NCBI RefSeq assembly: GCF_016908715.1
Contig: NZ_JAFBEK010000010.1
Location: 1-53,347, forward strand
Reading direction: 5' to 3'
DNA length: 53,347 bases
From: Leuconostoc rapi
Lineage (GTDB): Bacteria > Bacillota > Bacilli > Lactobacillales > Lactobacillaceae
The notes under the pieces were generated by a model that saw only the letters and a program-made list of their open reading frames with translations, was not told the origin of the DNA and searched no databases. The position numbers were made by a program, and so were the translations under genes. This document shows positions 1 through 9,722 of this stretch, piece after piece (positions within the stretch are counted from its first letter, which is position 1; each line of letters opens with the position of its first letter).

Positions 1-576
1 AGTGAATCCGTATCAGGCTCAGAATCAATTAGTACGAGTGAATCCGTATCAGGCTCAGAATCAATCAGTACGAGTGAATCCGTATCAGGCTCAGAGTCAA
101 TTAGTACGAGTGCGTCAATCTCAGGCTCAGAATCAGTAAGTACGAGTGCGTCAATCTCAGGATCAGAATCAATTAGTACAAGTGAATCCGTATCAGGCTC
201 AGAATCAATTAGTACGAGTGAATCAATCTCAGGCTCAGAATCAGTAAGTACGAGTGCGTCAATCTCAGGATCAGAATCAATTAGTACAAGTGAATCCGTA
301 TCAGGCTCAGAATCAATTAGTACGAGTGAATCCGTATCAGGCTCAGAATCAATCAGTACGAGTGAATCCGTATCAGGCTCAGAATCAATTAGTACGAGTG
401 AATCAATTTCAGGCTCAGAATCAATTAGTACGAGTGAATCCGTATCAGGCTCAGAGTCAGTAAGTACGAGTGAATCAATCTCAGGCTCAGAATCAATTAG
501 TACAAGTGAGTCAGTTTCAGGCTCAGAATCAATTAGTACGAGTGAATCCGTATCAGGCTCAGAATCAATTAGTACG
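1..576 (+). repeat. Sixteen tandem 36-bp units encoding Ser-rich repeats
   Basis: Units start at 1, 37, 73 and so on to 541 with no spacer, each coding 12 residues. Differences are mainly GAATCC/GCGTCA, GTATCA/ATCTCA and ATT/ATC/GTA swaps. A higher-order 108-bp block is visible: 109-216 and 217-324 differ at only two bases as I read them. A degenerate seventeenth unit begins at 577. Confidence 0.95.
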
Positions 577-777
577 AGTGAATCTGTATCTGGATCAGAG
601 TCAACGAGCGAATCATCATCAGAAAATGGATTTAAAAATCAAAAAGTTTCTAAAGATGCTGTATTACCAAATACAGGAAATTCAGAAAATATAACAACTA
701 ATGGTGCAGCATTAGTTGGGCTTGGACTATTAGCAACAACTGTAGTAGTTAAAAAATCAAAGAGAAATAAAAAGTAG
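1..777 (+). CDS. Serine-rich-repeat adhesin, C-terminal part (5' end outside window)
   Basis: The reading frame is open from base 1 and stops with TAG at 775-777, giving 258 codons of a longer protein. It reads as a 12-residue repeat [12 protein letters not shown] with small variants ([12 protein letters not shown] and similar) up to base 576. A short linker, an LPNTG sortase motif at 664-678, a hydrophobic segment ([16 protein letters not shown]) and a basic tail KKSKRNKK follow. This is the standard layout of serine-rich-repeat glycoproteins, which are O-glycosylated in the cytoplasm, exported by SecA2/SecY2 and anchored to the wall by sortase. The accessory Sec and glycosyltransferase genes directly downstream fit this client. 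The ligand-binding N-terminal region is not visible, so the binding target cannot be stated. The ORFs at 254-694 are the same repeats read in another frame. Confidence 0.93.
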
Positions 778-2181: not shown

Positions 2182-3768
2182 ATGTTTTATTTTGTACCTT
2201 ATTGGTATGGTGAAAACAAGACAACGGCTTTTGATGATACGGTCAATCAAATCAGAATGTTTGAATCTGCCCATGAAAAGTCGGAAACAATTATTTGGGA
2301 TTATGCACCACAAATGAGGTGTTTTCTGCATCAACAAGGGTTGTCATTGGAAACATCTTGGTCAGTTTTTGATACGATACAAAATGTAACAGATATGTAT
2401 GCTAAAATAATTGATTTTAATGACTTAGATTGGCCAGCAGCAGCAGAGTTTGTCTACACACCATTCCGCATTAATGTGGTTGTTAAGGGGAAAATATATG
2501 CAGATGTGTCATTTGGTATAGAATCCCAATTATCAACTATTAATTATTTTGATAATGATCAAATAAGCAAGGCTTTGATTTTTGATGATAGAGGATTTTT
2601 GTCTAGTATTGTTCATTTTGAGATGGGTAAAAAAACTACTCAAGAATATCTAGACCGTGCTGGCTTATGGCAAATTCGGGTGACATATTTATCCGAAGGA
2701 GAAGCAGTGGTTGTGAACCCATTATTTTATGAACGATTTGATAAGCGTGGTTACCAAAATTTAAATAACTTGATTCAAGAGGTGATTAATGATCATTTTA
2801 ATAGTGCATCTGATTTAGGTCAGTCAACTTTAGTGATTGCAGCACATGAAAAATACAATCAAAAATTACTAAAATTAGCACATCGTCCTAAAAATTTAGT
2901 GCTTTCTTTTTTTAGAAATAGATACGATTATAAAAAAAACGACCAATTATTAATAGAAGAACTATCAGTAGCCAACTTTGCGATTACAGATACGCAAGGC
3001 CAATTAGAAGATATCAAACAAATTGTGTTGTCAAATAATAATAGTCAACTTGTGACTAAGTTACAGCACATATCACCCTATGATACTAGATTTCAGTTAG
3101 GCAATAGTCAGCAAGTTAAGGGGCTCAAAATTTTTTTGACTGTCCAAGAAATGCCAGAAAATCAAATTGTTTTTGTGTTAACAACCATACTAGCAGCTAT
3201 GACACATAATCCTTTAATTGAATTATGTATTGCCAGTTCAGAGAAAAATAATATCAAAAGCCTCGAAGTGTATCTAAAAAAAGCATTGGCTCAATATTTT
3301 CATTTAGAAATGAATGACGTGTTAACTGATATCCCACTAGATAGTGAAACTGGTGAAAATCAACTTGAGACATCTGAAAGCAATACGGATCAGAAATCTG
3401 AGGTAGTTGATTTGTACAAACGTGTTCGGATCGAAACCTTTGAAACGGAAAATGCTATTATTCAAGCGTTTAAAACCGTGCGTTTAATTATTGATGTGAG
3501 TAGGAGACCAAATATTTACATTCAAATAGCCGGAATTAGTGCGGGTATTCCACAAATTAACTTAACTACTTCACCCTACATTGTTGATAAGAAAAATGGG
3601 CTCATCCTACAAGAAATATCCGAATTAAATCAAGCAATTACCTATTATTTTAATGGGTTACGACATTGGAATGAATCACTCGTCTATTCAGTGCGGCAAA
3701 TTAGACAGTATACAGATGGCGCAATTGTTAATCAATGGCAACGTTTGCTAGGTGAACATAATGAATGA
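2182..3768 (+). CDS. asp1: Accessory Sec system protein Asp1
   Basis: Predicted 528-residue soluble protein beginning MFYFVPYWYGE, a typical Asp1 opening. In characterised systems Asp1 has a glycosyltransferase-B-like fold without known transferase activity and forms a complex with Asp2 and Asp3 that binds the adhesin and supports its hand-over to SecA2. Here the middle is variable and charged (residues about 395-415 are rich in Glu, Ser and Thr). The C-terminal segment GISAGIPQINLTTSPYIVD resembles the nucleotide-site end of GT-B folds. The start is ATG with GAGG about 8 bases upstream. The stop codon lies inside the asp2 start region (3761), suggesting translational coupling. Confidence 0.9.
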   Translation: MFYFVPYWYGENKTTAFDDTVNQIRMFESAHEKSETIIWDYAPQMRCFLHQQGLSLETSWSVFDTIQNVTDMYAKIIDFNDLDWPAAAEFVYTPFRINVVVKGKIYADVSFGIESQLSTINYFDNDQISKALIFDDRGFLSSIVHFEMGKKTTQEYLDRAGLWQIRVTYLSEGEAVVVNPLFYERFDKRGYQNLNNLIQEVINDHFNSASDLGQSTLVIAAHEKYNQKLLKLAHRPKNLVLSFFRNRYDYKKNDQLLIEELSVANFAITDTQGQLEDIKQIVLSNNNSQLVTKLQHISPYDTRFQLGNSQQVKGLKIFLTVQEMPENQIVFVLTTILAAMTHNPLIELCIASSEKNNIKSLEVYLKKALAQYFHLEMNDVLTDIPLDSETGENQLETSESNTDQKSEVVDLYKRVRIETFETENAIIQAFKTVRLIIDVSRRPNIYIQIAGISAGIPQINLTTSPYIVDKKNGLILQEISELNQAITYYFNGLRHWNESLVYSVRQIRQYTDGAIVNQWQRLLGEHNE

Positions 3769-5302
3769 TAAGATAATTCGTATTTTACAGGTTGGCGATT
3801 ATAACTGGTTAGATCAGGTCAAGTTAGCCGATCAATCAGTTGAGTGGCATTTTGTAACGAATGAAAATGTGTCTAACTATATCACACAATTGTTAAAAGA
3901 TGACAATGAAAAGCCTGAATTTGAAGCTATTTTATTGACTGAGAGTGACGGACTTAAAAATTATGAAGTTATTTTTAAAATAGCCGACCCCTATACGATT
4001 TTAATTGATGAAAATCAGATTGTGAAGGATTCACAGTTACTGAACTTATTAACGATATATCACGCACAAAAAATTGATATGAAAAATATTGATCAAGTAA
4101 TTTATGATTTAAGTAAATATTTTTTTGTTGGGCAATATGGTGAGAAACTTAATATTAGCCAAGTGCAAATATCACCCAATTATACTGGACAGGTTCAGTA
4201 TAATGGTAATACTAATTTACAATTAACCGGTAATTTCGGCAGGCAATTAATACCTATACTATCATGGCAGTATAACATTGCTGCAGATTCAAAATATAAT
4301 CATGAAATATGGTTGGAATATGAAGCGAGTAAGGATGCCATGATTGCGTTGAATGTACAAATGATTGCGGCAGGAACATCTCACATTTTAAAACAGTGGG
4401 AAGTACTAGAACATGACATGTACGCACCATTGTTGATTGAAAATCATGCTAACTCTGATTATTATTTGTCAGTGTCTTTAAAAATACAAGGAGAGGGATA
4501 TGTTAAAGTTGGAAATCTTCACAATCGTCTGGCTAGAAAAAATTACGGTCAATTACTTTTAGGTGGTAAACGATTAGTTGATAATCATCATGAAGAGATT
4601 ATGACTTATTTTCATCCTGGTGACATGCAACCACCACTCAACGTTTATTTTTCTGGTTATCGTTCTGCTGAAGGATTTGAAGGTTACTGGATGATGAAAA
4701 ACCTAGGCGCACCATTTTTACTGATAGCTGATCCACGTTTGGAAGGCGGCGCATTTTATGTAGGTAGTGCTGAACTGGAAAATGATGTGGTTGAAATTAT
4801 TCAGCAAAAAATAACTGAATTGGGATTTACAACAAAGCAATTGATTTTATCTGGGTTATCCATGGGTACGTTTGGTGCACTTTATTACGCAAACCAGTTA
4901 GAGCCCCGTGCCATTATTGTTGGTAAGCCGCTCGTAAACTTAGGAAATATTGCAGCGAATGAAAAATTAGTTCGTCCGAACGGTTTTCCAACTTCTTTAG
5001 ACCTACTATTATCAATGACAGGCGGTACGTCTATAGAACATGTTGATAGGTTAAATCAACGGTTTTGGGAACGATTTAATCATGCCAACTTGGATGAAAC
5101 TGTTCTGGCCATTGCGTACATGAAAGATGATGATTATGATGTGACAGCATATCATGATTTGTTAACGAGTTTAAGTCAGAGCCGTGCCATTGTCATTAGT
5201 AAGGGCATTGCAGGACGACATAACGACGACTCACCAGCAATTAATAAATGGTTTTTTGCGCAATATCAGAGAATATTGGCAGATAAATTTCCAAGAAAGT
5301 GA
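3761..5302 (+). CDS. asp2: Accessory Sec system protein Asp2, putative O-acetyltransferase/esterase fold
   Basis: Predicted 513-residue protein. I chose ATG 3761 because AGGTG at 3750-3754 sits 6 bases upstream; the in-frame GTG at 3752 lies inside that signal. The central part (about 140-280) is beta-rich and lectin-like. The C-terminal part (about 290-510) is an alpha/beta hydrolase-like domain with nucleophile elbow GLSMG (Ser367), an acidic DDD cluster (456-458) and a late His487 (GRHNDD). As I recall them, the catalytic residues of Streptococcus gordonii Asp2 are S362, E452 and H482; a constant offset of five maps these to S367, D457 and H487. Asp2 acetylates GlcNAc on the adhesin and is also needed for export. 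All three candidate residues are present, so this copy looks active. Confidence 0.92.
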   Translation: MNDKIIRILQVGDYNWLDQVKLADQSVEWHFVTNENVSNYITQLLKDDNEKPEFEAILLTESDGLKNYEVIFKIADPYTILIDENQIVKDSQLLNLLTIYHAQKIDMKNIDQVIYDLSKYFFVGQYGEKLNISQVQISPNYTGQVQYNGNTNLQLTGNFGRQLIPILSWQYNIAADSKYNHEIWLEYEASKDAMIALNVQMIAAGTSHILKQWEVLEHDMYAPLLIENHANSDYYLSVSLKIQGEGYVKVGNLHNRLARKNYGQLLLGGKRLVDNHHEEIMTYFHPGDMQPPLNVYFSGYRSAEGFEGYWMMKNLGAPFLLIADPRLEGGAFYVGSAELENDVVEIIQQKITELGFTTKQLILSGLSMGTFGALYYANQLEPRAIIVGKPLVNLGNIAANEKLVRPNGFPTSLDLLLSMTGGTSIEHVDRLNQRFWERFNHANLDETVLAIAYMKDDDYDVTAYHDLLTSLSQSRAIVISKGIAGRHNDDSPAINKWFFAQYQRILADKFPRK

Positions 5303-5309
5303 TCAAAAC

Positions 5310-5708
5310 ATGGTTAACCAGCACGCTGTTATCTATTGGCAATCAAACATTGGTAAGACATATATGTACGGATCAACAATAAATTATATAACCAAAGATC
5401 ATGTTATATTTCAAAATGATTTATTTTCCGTCGGGAGTATAGTACATTCTTGGCAATCATTAAGTCAATATCAAACGCAACGTTCGGGAAAACAGTTACC
5501 ACTACTATTAGCAGGTACCGAATACCAGTTAACACTTAACGCGTCAATTGTACCTGAAAAAGCCATGTATCTTCAACTTAAATTTTATGATCGCTATGAA
5601 AATATAATTGACAGAATAACTATCAAGGACAAGGTTGGAAAATTTAGGTATCCAGAGAACGCATACGCATATGACGTTGAGTTGATTAATGTGGGAGTAA
5701 AAAAATAG
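5310..5708 (+). CDS. asp3: Accessory Sec system protein Asp3, core domain truncated by a stop after an A7 run
   Basis: As written this encodes 132 residues from ATG 5310 (seven bases after asp2) to TAG 5706-5708. It shows the usual Asp3 start VIYWQSNIGKTYMYGSTI and the late conserved stretch YDVELINVG. The family domain normally ends a few residues later with a segment like FHSIEI. That segment appears here in the -1 frame (IVFHNIEI) directly after the stop, so the gene is cut short of its own domain end. The run at the junction is GTA AAA AAA TAG, a classical A AAA AAA heptamer. Either a one-base indel has broken the gene, or frameshifting or slippage restores a product of about 330 residues. 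Asp3 is a lectin-like beta protein of the Asp1-3 complex. The upstream in-frame extension to 5184 lies inside asp2 and is not the start. Confidence 0.85.
   Translation: MVNQHAVIYWQSNIGKTYMYGSTINYITKDHVIFQNDLFSVGSIVHSWQSLSQYQTQRSGKQLPLLLAGTEYQLTLNASIVPEKAMYLQLKFYDRYENIIDRITIKDKVGKFRYPENAYAYDVELINVGVKK
5699..5705 (+). other. A AAA AAA slippery heptamer at the asp3 stop
   Basis: Zero-frame codons are GTA AAA AAA TAG. A -1 shift on the heptamer gives codons ATA, GTT, TTC and rejoins the conserved Asp3 end VGVKK-IVFHNIEI. GGGAG at 5693-5697 lies only one base upstream, too close for the dnaX-type stimulatory spacing of roughly 10 bases. Transcriptional slippage, programmed frameshifting and a simple indel all remain possible. 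Confidence 0.6.
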
Positions 5709-6301
5709 TTTTCCATAATATTGAAATTAATGATGCAAAGTTTGATGAACAGCAGATCAGTAATGATCAAGGATTGCATGTATCTGATGTTTTGAATGAG
5801 ACCGTAGAATCACGTGATTTACACGTGATATTTACTGAACCAGCGATTGGTACAATTGCGACTGTTCCGGCTGACATATGCGATCAAATTCCTGATGTCA
5901 TCCAAATAACGAGTAGCCGGCTATACGGTCAATTTTATCTCAGTAAACAAATTGAAAAAGACATTATTTTAATGTTAGATCGATTACAAAAATTATATGA
6001 TATTGAAACCATTAATTTTATTGGCTATGGGCCAATTTCTAGTGCTGCGGCGCTATATTATTCAAACCAAATAGACTCGGGTTTTGCCTATGTTTCTTCG
6101 GATTATGGTCAGTTATCTGCATCAAGGAACATGATTTATACAGACGGCTATGAAAAATTTATAACGGCAAAAAAATCGTTTGATGAGACACCAAAGACAA
6201 TATATCATCATGTTGATCCGATGAGTTCAAGCTTACAAATTGTGGCTAATTTATTAGATAAATCATCACGTTTAAAAAGTTATATCAATACTATTAATTA
6301 G
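5705..6301 (+). CDS. Asp3 C-terminal extension in the -1 frame: degenerate Asp2-like hydrolase domain
   Basis: This frame is open from 5690 to TAG 6299-6301. The first canonical start (TTG 5774) has AAGGA touching it with no spacing, so independent initiation is poorly supported; reading through from asp3 fits better. The first residues, IVFHNIEI, complete the Asp3 domain. The rest parallels the end of Asp2: INFIGYGPISSAAALYYSNQ here against LILSGLSMGTFGALYYANQ in Asp2. The nucleophile elbow has lost its serine (GYGP instead of GLSMG), though a late His remains (YHHVDP). I infer a non-catalytic hydrolase-like domain fused to Asp3, giving the same lectin plus hydrolase order as Asp2. It lies directly before secA2. 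Its function is unknown. Confidence 0.7.
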   Translation: MVFHNIEINDAKFDEQQISNDQGLHVSDVLNETVESRDLHVIFTEPAIGTIATVPADICDQIPDVIQITSSRLYGQFYLSKQIEKDIILMLDRLQKLYDIETINFIGYGPISSAAALYYSNQIDSGFAYVSSDYGQLSASRNMIYTDGYEKFITAKKSFDETPKTIYHHVDPMSSSLQIVANLLDKSSRLKSYINTIN

Positions 6302-6316
6302 TGTTTGGAGGTTAGT

Positions 6317-8689
6317 ATGTTCAGTATAGATGGTATGCGTCTTAAAAAAATAAAAAAAATTTTGAGACAAGTCAATCATTGGACAGGTAAGATGTCTGAA
6401 ATGACAGATGTTGAACTCAAGCAACAGACAGGTTTGTTAAAGCAACAATTGCGTGAAGGCGTATCTTTAGACGATATGTTACCGCAGGCATTTGCGACAA
6501 TAAGAGAAGCAGATAAAAGAGTACTTGGAAAATTTCCTTATGATGTCCAAGTATTAGGGGCCATTGTTTTGCATCAAGGAAACATCGCTGAAATGAAAAC
6601 AGGCGAAGGAAAAACATTAACAGCCACGTTGCCCATTTATTTAAACGCTCTAACTGGTAAAGGGGTCATGTTGATTACAACGAATAGTTATTTAGCTAGT
6701 CGTGATGCCTATGAGCTCGGAAAAGTATATGAATGGTTGGGTCTAACCCTTGCGGTAGGTGTTAATGAGGATCCTAATTATCGTTATACTGTCGAAGAAA
6801 AAAAGGCAATATATCAAGCTGATATATTGTATACAACTAACGATGCAGTAGGATTTGATTATTTGCAAGAAAATTTAGTGGATAGCCAAGATAATCAATT
6901 TTTACGCCCCTTTAACTACGCTATTTTAGACGAAGTTGATGCTATCTTATTAGATTCTGCCCAAACGCCGTTGATTATTTCTGGATCGCCTCGTGTGCAG
7001 TCGAATCTGTTTCATGTTGTTAACCAATTTGTTTTAACGTTATCTGAAAATTCAGAGTATGATCTTGATGATGAAAGGAAACATGTTTGGTTAACAACTC
7101 AAGGTATCGAACAAGCAAAACGTTTTTTTGAAAAGTCTGACTTGTTTTCTGCGGATAATTACTTATTAATCAGACATATTGAACTGGCTTTGCAGGCAAA
7201 GGAATTATTTAAGATCAATCAAGATTATGTGATTAATGGCGACGAAATTAAATTATTGGACAGTAAGAACGGACGTGTGATGTCTGGTACAAAGTTACAG
7301 GCCGGATTACATCAGGCCATTGAAGCTAAAGAAGGGCTTACTATAACACAACAAACACGTGCCATGGCTTCAATCACTTATCAAAACTTATTTAGGATGT
7401 TCAAAAAATTAGCTGGTATGACGGGGACTGGTAAAACTAACGAAGAAGAATTTATTGAAACATATAACATGACAGTCATTGCTATTCCAACGCATCGTCC
7501 AATAATCAGAAAAGATTTACCAGATAAAATTTATGTCAGCTTACCTGAAAAGTTATATGCATCTATGGCTTTGGTTAAAGCATGCTATCGAAATAAGCAA
7601 CCTGTTTTGTTAGCGACAGGATCAGTAGAAATATCTGAAATTTATTCACAAATGTTGTTGCGTGAGGGTATTCCACATAATGTTTTAAATGCAAGAAACA
7701 TCGCTAAAGAGGCAGCAATTATTGCTGAAGCTGGGCAACTGGGGTCAGTGACTGTTGCTACTGCCATGGCTGGTAGAGGAACAGATATTAAGTTGGGGAA
7801 AGGTGTTGCGGAATTAGGTGGACTGGCTGTTATCGGTACTGAGCGTATGACAAGCATGCGAATTGATTTACAACTTCGTGGGCGTGCAGGTCGACAGGGG
7901 GATCCAGGATTTAGCCAGTTTTTTGTGAGTTTAGAGGATGATATTATAATTAAACGTGGTTCTGAACGGACGCACCGATACTATAAAAAATTTGCGGAAC
8001 AAATTGATTTGGAACATCTTCATGAGCTAACCCAGCAAAGGTTCAAAACCAGTGTGGACAAGGCGCAATTTTCCGAAGAAAGCCAAGGGCGTATAGCGAG
8101 GCTGAATGCCTTAGAGTTTGATGAAAGTATGAGAATACAGCGTACATTAGTCTATGAGGAACGTAATAAGTTACTCAGATTAAATCGCACATTAGAGAAA
8201 GAAGTTTTAGCTGCTTCGTATCGAGAAATCACTCTTTTTTTGCAACAGAACATGTCATTAACACCTAATTTGTTGAAAAGATACATTCTAGATCACATGA
8301 ATTATAATTTAAAACAAGACGATGATGTTCTAAATCCTAATCAATTTGATGATTTGTCATCGCAATTGTTAGGAATGGTAAGCGAGGAAATACAGAGAAA
8401 AAGAAAGATTTTAGAATCCACGACACAGACAGTCAATTTTCAGAGACTTTGTGTTTTAAAAGCAATTGATGTTGGTTGGGTTGAGCAAGTTGATAATTTA
8501 CAACAATTGCGTCAAGTTGTAACGGATAGAAAATTTTCACAACAAAATCCGCTCTTTGAGTATCAAAAAGAGGCTATTGCGTCATATCAAAAAATGTGTC
8601 AGCAAGTTGATCAACTGGTACTAAAAAATATCATGTTGAGTACAATTAAGCGAGAAAAAAGCGGTGAAATCATAGTTTCATTTCCATAA
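6317..8689 (+). CDS. secA2: Accessory Sec motor ATPase SecA2
   Basis: Predicted 790-residue DEAD-like ATPase, shorter than housekeeping SecA (about 800-900 with a zinc-binding tail). It has no C-terminal Cys-rich zinc motif, as is typical for accessory SecA2. The Walker A segment is TGEGKT at residues 95-100, Walker B is in AILDEVDAILLD, and the helicase motifs MAGRGTDI and QLRGRAGRQGD are present near residues 490-540. ATG 6317 is chosen because GGAGG ends five bases upstream; the TTG at 6305 lies before that signal. The protein drives export of the glycosylated adhesin through SecY2. It follows the asp3 extension with a 15-base gap and belongs to the same transcription unit. Confidence 0.95.
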   Translation: MFSIDGMRLKKIKKILRQVNHWTGKMSEMTDVELKQQTGLLKQQLREGVSLDDMLPQAFATIREADKRVLGKFPYDVQVLGAIVLHQGNIAEMKTGEGKTLTATLPIYLNALTGKGVMLITTNSYLASRDAYELGKVYEWLGLTLAVGVNEDPNYRYTVEEKKAIYQADILYTTNDAVGFDYLQENLVDSQDNQFLRPFNYAILDEVDAILLDSAQTPLIISGSPRVQSNLFHVVNQFVLTLSENSEYDLDDERKHVWLTTQGIEQAKRFFEKSDLFSADNYLLIRHIELALQAKELFKINQDYVINGDEIKLLDSKNGRVMSGTKLQAGLHQAIEAKEGLTITQQTRAMASITYQNLFRMFKKLAGMTGTGKTNEEEFIETYNMTVIAIPTHRPIIRKDLPDKIYVSLPEKLYASMALVKACYRNKQPVLLATGSVEISEIYSQMLLREGIPHNVLNARNIAKEAAIIAEAGQLGSVTVATAMAGRGTDIKLGKGVAELGGLAVIGTERMTSMRIDLQLRGRAGRQGDPGFSQFFVSLEDDIIIKRGSERTHRYYKKFAEQIDLEHLHELTQQRFKTSVDKAQFSEESQGRIARLNALEFDESMRIQRTLVYEERNKLLRLNRTLEKEVLAASYREITLFLQQNMSLTPNLLKRYILDHMNYNLKQDDDVLNPNQFDDLSSQLLGMVSEEIQRKRKILESTTQTVNFQRLCVLKAIDVGWVEQVDNLQQLRQVVTDRKFSQQNPLFEYQKEAIASYQKMCQQVDQLVLKNIMLSTIKREKSGEIIVSFP

Positions 8690-8714
8690 CCCTATGGTCA
8701 GAAAGGACAACATT

Positions 8715-9722
8715 TTGAGAACGCATATCACAAATATTTATGGGCAATCGCCCTCAAGTACGGCTATGATTGCACAAAATATGGTAACCGAGGTTGCTAA
8801 ATCAATTGGTTTTAATGAAATTGGCATCTATTCGTATCCAATTCATACCGATACGCCACAAGAAATTCGTAAGCGTATCGATGGTATGCTAGCCGGTGTT
8901 TCAAATCATGACATTGTTGTAGTCCAACTCCCTAGCTGGAATGGTATTGAGTTTGATGAGCTGCTTATTAATAAACTTTTAGGTTATTCAGATATTAAAA
9001 TCGCTGTTTTGATACATGATGTTGTGCCGTTAATGTTTGAAAATAATTACTATCTCATGCAGCGAACAATTGATTTATATAATAAAGCTGAATCGATTAT
9101 TGTGCCTTCAGATGAAATGCTTAAGACACTAAAACATGCTGGTTTAGTAGTCAATAGTATTGCCGTGCAACATGTTTGGGATCATGTTACAAATTTTGAT
9201 CCCAAACAACCAATTTTCGAGCCACTTATTAATTTTGCTGGATCCGCTGTACGTTTTCCATTTGTTCAAAATTGGCATAGTCAAACTAAACTTCAGGTGT
9301 TTTCACGATCCACGATAAGTAGCTTAAATGAGCAAGTAAGTTATCGAGGTTGGTTGCCAGACGATGACTTATTACGTCAATTAACAAGTGGTTTTGGTTT
9401 GGTATGGAGTGAAAATATTGATAACCAATCAGAACGTGCCTACTCACAGCGAAACATATCTTATAAATTAAGTACTTATTTAGCTGCGGGGTTACCAGTT
9501 ATTGTGAATAAAGGTATTTCGAACTAAAGCTTTATTACAGAAAATAATTTGGGCATGATTGTGTCATCATTGTCCGAGATAGATCAGCTTATTGCGCATA
9601 CTACAGAAGAACAGTATCAAGATATGGCTAATCATGTTAGACAAGTGGGTTATTTAATCCGGCAAGGTTATTTTACTAAAAAAGTATTAATTGATACAAT
9701 TCACCGATTATTGACATGCTAA
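8715..9722 (+). pseudogene. gtf3: Glycosyltransferase Gtf3 (Nss), interrupted by an in-frame TAA
   Basis: The protein from TTG 8715 begins MRTHITNIYGQSPSSTA and runs through IHDVVPLMFENNYYLM and KLSTYLAAGLPVIV, matching the Gtf3/Nss family that adds the second sugar (glucose on GlcNAc) to serine-rich adhesins. AAAGGA at 8702-8707 supports TTG 8715 over ATG 8694. A TAA at 9525-9527 stops the protein after KGISN. The same frame stays open behind it (SFITENNLGMIVSSLSEI, then RQGYFTKKVLIDTIHRL) to the true stop at 9720-9722, and that stretch matches the usual family C-terminus. The stop sits where related proteins have Gln, so one C-to-T change (CAA to TAA) explains it. The lost 65 residues include the end of the catalytic fold, so the product is probably inactive unless the stop is an artefact. 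Confidence 0.85.

Follow-up and report, generated by a model that had tools for sequence, protein, structure and literature searches.

The accessory Sec system links the glycosylation and O-acetylation of serine-rich adhesins to their export. A locus for this system is present in a stretch of 53,347 nucleotides from Leuconostoc rapi (contig NZ_JAFBEK010000010.1, positions 1 to 53,347; hereafter the window), where the genes for SecY2, Asp1, Asp2, Asp3, SecA2 and glycosyltransferases follow, in this order, the last part of a gene for a serine-rich adhesin. The asp3 gene occupies two reading frames, the first encoding the Asp3 core and the second an extension that the evidence supports as an Asp2-like, serine-less domain of the hydrolase type. 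The explanation that we favour, at a probability of roughly two in three, is that this is a long asp3 gene for two domains, the second a dead homologue of the Asp2 hydrolase domain, which is split here at a run of seven A nucleotides (A7). The relevant features are as follows.

3752..5302, plus strand: Asp2, accessory Sec O-acetyltransferase family, with a GLSMG elbow (PF16929, 640.7 bits; TIGR03712, 607.7 bits; 6lnw_B, 3.2e-127)
5310..5708, plus strand: Asp3 core frame, 132 codons and TAG (PF15432, 123 bits over profile positions 1-115 of 126)
5699..5705, plus strand: A7 run, the meeting point of both frames (GTA AAA AAA TAG; junction DNA compared over 114 loci)
5705..6301, plus strand: extension in the -1 frame, a putative Asp2-like pseudo-hydrolase domain with GYGPISS replacing GxSxG
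6305..8689, plus strand: SecA2, intact, with an uncertain start codon (TIGR03714, 1120 bits)
8694..9716, plus strand: glycosyltransferase gene with an in-frame TAA at 9525-9527 (similarity to an intact relative extends to 9716)

The Asp3 frame runs from the ATG at 5310 to the TAG at 5706-5708, and its product scores well above the family thresholds (123 bits with PF15432, cut-off 27; 131.9 bits with TIGR03711, cut-off 67.25). The stop codon falls within the last strand of the core, after LINVGVKK, at a position that relatives read past with, for example, LVFHHVEI. The natural short Asp3 proteins that were read also keep this strand, and the short frame of the window is therefore unlike them. 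Relative to the Asp3 frame, the extension is shifted to the -1 frame, which is open from 5690; it comprises 198 codons and a stop, with ATA at 5705 as its first codon, TAG at 6299-6301 as its last, and TTG at 5774 as the earliest possible start. A tblastn search with the intact Asp3 of a relative (G005) recovers two pieces of the window, one in frame 3 (5283-5705, 64.5% identity) and the other in frame 2 (5690-6295, 54.5%). Because the one-base offset at the A7 run splits the gene inside the last core strand, a complete Asp3 cannot be read from either frame on its own. The original prediction, made from the sequence of the window alone, had described a 330-residue protein in which an Asp2-like, serine-less hydrolase domain is fused behind Asp3. 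The domain, its likeness to Asp2 and the lack of a GxSxG motif are all borne out, whereas the fusion is not supported for this gene. No single open reading frame (ORF) of 330 residues is present, because core and extension lie in different frames, and the two do not form the one continuous frame of the long Asp3 and Gap3 proteins.

As that prediction had proposed, the segment INFIGYGPISSAAALYYSNQ in the extension can be aligned with LILSGLSMGTFGALYYANQ in the adjacent Asp2, and the match is above chance. The extension aligns over the hydrolase domain's first strand, the nucleophile elbow, and the strand and helix that precede this elbow. Comparison of hidden Markov model profiles for the extension (47 rows) and the Asp2 C-terminal domain (114 rows, no Asp3 included) returns a probability of 89.5, a P value of 2e-6 and a score of 42.7. 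In the controls, the reversed profile scores 14.9, the highest of 100 column shuffles reaches 21.3, and none of six further proteins encoded at the locus exceeds 19.2. Similarly, the Asp3 core matches the middle domain of Asp2 (P value 2.5e-4; score 27.1, against 19.1 for the highest of 100 shuffles), and the crossed pairs score only 14.1 (core with the Asp2 C-terminal domain) and 9.1 (extension with the Asp2 middle domain). Each half of long Asp3 thus has its counterpart in Asp2, in the middle and the C-terminal domain respectively, and the lectin-like plus hydrolase layout foreseen for the protein is supported, with a full-length model of an intact relative matching the Asp2 homologue Gap2 (6oyc_B) over 289 columns. 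A search of 5,027 ORFs with the Asp2 profile finds one Asp3, entered as both L021 and L125, at about 4e-5 and returns no hit with reversed sequences, and the reverse search with the extension profile finds three Asp2 ORFs at 0.016-0.020. The extension of the window itself does not match the Asp2 models PF16929 or TIGR03712 at E values up to 1, and nothing in the Pfam and NCBIfam libraries scores above cut-off.

Asp2 and Gap2 proteins (PF16929, TIGR03712; 6oyc_B, 6lnw_B) share with long Asp3 the arrangement of a jelly-roll followed by a hydrolase domain and have a homologous C-terminal fold. However, the Asp2 elbow has its serine in 109 of 114 rows, as part of a Ser-Asp-His triad, whereas the extension profile reads GYGP[IV]S[SN] in a shorter domain. 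For Streptococcus gordonii Asp2, the published study gives the triad as Ser362-Asp452-His482, with E452A printed in its strain table (PMC5578698). Among the 47 extension rows, the first G of GYGPIS is conserved in 46 and its second G and its S in all 47, both residues of a first-strand EP are likewise kept in all 47, and the nucleophile column holds P in 38 and S in one. There is no GxSxG elbow in the extension, and the motif occurs in just one of 118 long Asp3 tails, far behind the domain. The signature is not universal, being AYGTQGN in 6oyc_C and SYGPKGN in locus L157. Judged by this motif, the extension domain is not an Asp2-type acetyltransferase, because the nucleophile motif is lost.

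Structure prediction assigns the extension to the alpha/beta-hydrolase fold. Two further structural match lists show one chain per entry, for which reason 6oyc_B is missing from one and 6oyc_C from the other. The list of Foldseek matches for the extension model is broad and consists mostly of alpha/beta hydrolases. This breadth, and a profile probability of 89.5 that is not near 100, are compatible with an unrelated Rossmann-like domain that resembles Asp2 by convergence; beside the control scores given above, we consider that improbable. Among solved structures, the closest to the intact relative is Gap3 of the S. agalactiae Gap123 complex (6oyc chain C), a protein of 330 residues that likewise carries an Asp3 core and the same C-terminal domain (INVIAYGTQGNFAALYYAKKF), although Gap3 is a single chain with AYGTQGN whereas the Asp3 of the window is frame-split with GYGPISS. 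The model of the L117 protein matches 6oyc_C at 4e-21, and an Asp3 from the orphan module described below does so by sequence at an E value of 1.4e-12, aligned through the motif. The window extension alone matches it at 0.3 by sequence and 1.8e-3 by Foldseek, so its homology to the second domain of Gap3 is traced via the intact relatives. The suggestion that a pseudo-acetyltransferase partner in the Asp1-2-3 complex was undescribed is not supported, because the solved Gap123 complex contains this region. The structure was released in 2020. Searches of an open-access library turned up no description of the second domain of Asp3, although one may nonetheless be in print.

Short Asp3 proteins (5vae_B; S. 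pneumoniae 6lnw_C; S. parasanguinis Gap3) have the same core fold and match PF15432, but they lack the second domain. The natural short forms that were read keep the last core strand, which is missing from the window frame. A study of S. parasanguinis places Gap3-GFP at 48 kDa and green fluorescent protein (GFP) at 27 kDa (PMC2335109).

Long forms predominate among the relatives of L. rapi. A genus sample of 19 genomes yields 28 Asp3 matches including that of the window, and 27 of them are single open frames of 297-406 codons, the window being the exception at 177. Asp3 occurs in 117 of the 397 genomes of the family sample. The 114 loci that were read (the 28 from the genus and 86 further match rows from the family sample) include 105 with at least 100 residues after the core in the same frame, eight short forms and the split gene of the window. 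With 40 further loci from order and class samples, the tally becomes 118 long and 35 short, plus the window. An iterated profile seeded by the window extension reaches 46 of the 105 long tails of the first set and eight of the 13 of the second (L182 over 10 columns only). Tail length alone does not show the presence of the domain, because 59 of the 105 tails were left unreached, and many of these may be reduced or unrelated.

The samples are labelled by family codes. The rows of code f4, a single genus and by inference Streptococcus, comprise four long and 27 short proteins, and open frames range from 292 to 365 in the nine rows belonging to codes f3 and f5. In code f17, presumably staphylococcal, ten rows lie at 275-310 and five at 163-214. 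Among the loci fetched from codes f4, f5 and f17 (none were fetched from f3), the domain profile finds matches in all three codes. On an unrooted FastTree tree of the core, built from few columns and 149 different rows from 154 loci (identical cores merged) and labelled by tail length, the long or short label changes at least nine times, with three changes forced by well supported branches. The simplest reading of these scattered short forms is repeated loss of the second domain. Thus the proposal that short Asp3 proteins have lost this domain suits the tree, but it is not proven because the tree has no root. Very long tails, with 306-545 residues after the core, occur at L071, L085, L086, L094, L099, L102 and L105, and the Asp3 frames of the named Fructobacillus loci L119-L122 are 437-480 codons long.

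Several observations weigh against the explanation that we favour. Only one Asp3 protein (two identical entries of 137) falls under 1e-3 with the Asp2 profile, and the link between the core and the Asp2 middle domain is weak when taken alone. Both structure models are of middling confidence (predicted local distance difference test scores of 65.8 and 68.7), and no Foldseek match to the extension by itself has an E value under 1e-3. For 64 of the 118 long tails, including the 59 of the first set, there is no sequence link to the domain, and many of those 59 look different by eye. Finally, the break is seen in one assembly and within a homopolymer.

The last point raises the question of whether the break is real. 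Comparison with the nearest relative gives ratios of nonsynonymous to synonymous substitution rates (dN/dS) near 0.25 for the extension, 0.06 for the core (with dS near saturation), 0.14 for Asp2, 0.20 for Asp1 and 0.07 for SecA2. Because the extension is still under purifying selection, the break would be either recent or not real. A sequencing or assembly error in the homopolymer, in an organism that makes an ordinary long Asp3, would fit this selection, the position of the break in the A7 run, and the single long frame of 27 of the 28 genus matches. In addition, the L115 and L117 assemblies (L. inhae KCTC 3774 and L. fallax KCTC 3537) carry several locus genes split over frames, and the Asp3 tail of L005/L115 is out of frame near its end with that of the near-twin L004. 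Frame errors therefore probably occur in public Leuconostoc genomes. However, among 20 sense genes compared with the relative (window 878-24995, the repeat-rich adhesin left out), 18 have no frame change or internal stop. The two broken genes are asp3 and the glycosyltransferase gene, and the TAA of the latter is not an error of homopolymer length. For a Leuconostoc adhesin, a real frameshift by A insertion has been reported, with confirmation by Sanger sequencing (PMC4895993). We regard an error as a serious but doubtful alternative. At L118, the glycosyltransferase gene after SecA2 is likewise split, into two overlapping frames.

The A7 run could also act in expression. The heptamer A_AAA_AAA is a classical -1 frameshift site; here it is phased accordingly, stands directly before the TAG, and is followed by the extension in the -1 frame. 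Slippage at this site, by the ribosome or during transcription, would yield short and long Asp3 from one gene. However, the two downstream stretches that were folded show no structure beyond that expected by chance (z scores of +0.76 and +1.31), and the extension profile, which misses some tails, matched a second frame in none of the other 113 loci. Three-frame reading of the eight short loci found none either, and a product of the zero frame would be missing the final core strand, which those short Asp3 proteins retain. We consider slippage unlikely, and programmed frameshifting was rejected as the principal explanation, with no stimulating structure in the two stretches folded and no split seen in the other 113 loci within the reach of the profile and the three-frame reading.

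A 175-codon ORF from TTG 5774 keeps the hydrolase-like strands and might complement a short Asp3 in trans as a separate protein. No well-spaced ribosome-binding site is visible by eye, and because the last core strand lies upstream of this TTG, it would be in neither product. We consider this arrangement very improbable, and an independent gene was set aside as the principal explanation on account of its first start being TTG 5774.

The locus is incomplete at its adhesin gene (window 1-775) because the contig begins within the serine-rich repeats; an LPNTG motif closes the frame. A search of plasmids for a further copy of the locus returned 41 records, and the top row has 24% query coverage. 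A second, orphan Asp1-Asp2-Asp3 module is found in the genome of the window (L002; G000:C7) and at the named loci L119-L135. All 17 of these named loci have Asp1 and Asp2 beside Asp3, and the flanking DNA that was fetched, at most 4 kb, holds no match to SecA2, SecY2, GtfA or GtfB (phmmer, 1e-8). Named loci obtained with the Asp3 query are from Leuconostoc or Fructobacillus in 20 of 21 cases, the other being a metagenome-assembled genome labelled uncultured Lactobacillus. All 19 genus genomes have Asp3, whereas SecA2 is above cut-off in eight and in pieces in one more, and SecY2 is present in seven and broken in two more. From these counts, 10 of the 19 seem to have Asp3 yet only housekeeping-type SecA and SecY. 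The orphan Asp2 of the window's genome (L002, 1925-3358, minus strand) lacks the nucleophile and reads GYGMG. Those of L. miyukkimchii and L. fallax (L123, L129) also lack the serine, with GSAMG and GCGMG, and orthologues keep it. In total, five of the 114 Asp2 rows have a residue other than Ser, in contrast to the uniform conservation of the triad stated in PMC5578698.

In the explanation that we favour, long Asp3 consists, as sequence profiles and models show, of a carbohydrate-binding-like jelly-roll core followed by an alpha/beta-hydrolase-fold domain without a nucleophile, and both it and Asp2 would descend from one two-domain ancestor, with Asp3 becoming the catalytically dead partner. 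The second domain would later have been lost from some Asp3 proteins more than once, and in the genome of the window the one-base offset at A7 splits asp3 within the last core strand. An origin of Asp3 by an Asp2-type duplication, as originally proposed, is the simplest reading of the sequences, although the weak core-to-middle link, the unrooted tree and the 64 unlinked tails limit it. In its intact form, the dead domain most likely has no catalytic role and serves the Asp1-2-3 complex as a scaffold or as a surface for glycan binding, helping in the presentation of the adhesin, once glycosylated, to Asp2 and SecA2.

The Asp3 chain of 5vae, which we take to be from S. gordonii, has 159 residues and is a short form. 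In S. gordonii, Asp3 binds Asp1 and Asp2, and the adhesin is bound by Asp2 and Asp3 (PMC5578698). The second domain is therefore not needed for these interactions in every species.

More tentatively, at somewhat less than even odds, Asp2 and long Asp3 could be an ancient pair of enzyme and pseudoenzyme derived from a duplicated lectin-plus-hydrolase protein. The dead copy, with its own signature of EP and GxGxxS in 47 rows, would then be the ancestral form of Asp3, possibly binding the adhesin glycan or regulating O-acetylation, and its role would have gone unstudied because it was lost in the streptococci, where most work on Asp3 has been done. If long Asp3 is a dead paralogue of Asp2, several of the streptococcal Asp3 proteins on which much work exists would be reduced forms, and the need for three Asp proteins becomes testable by removal of single domains.
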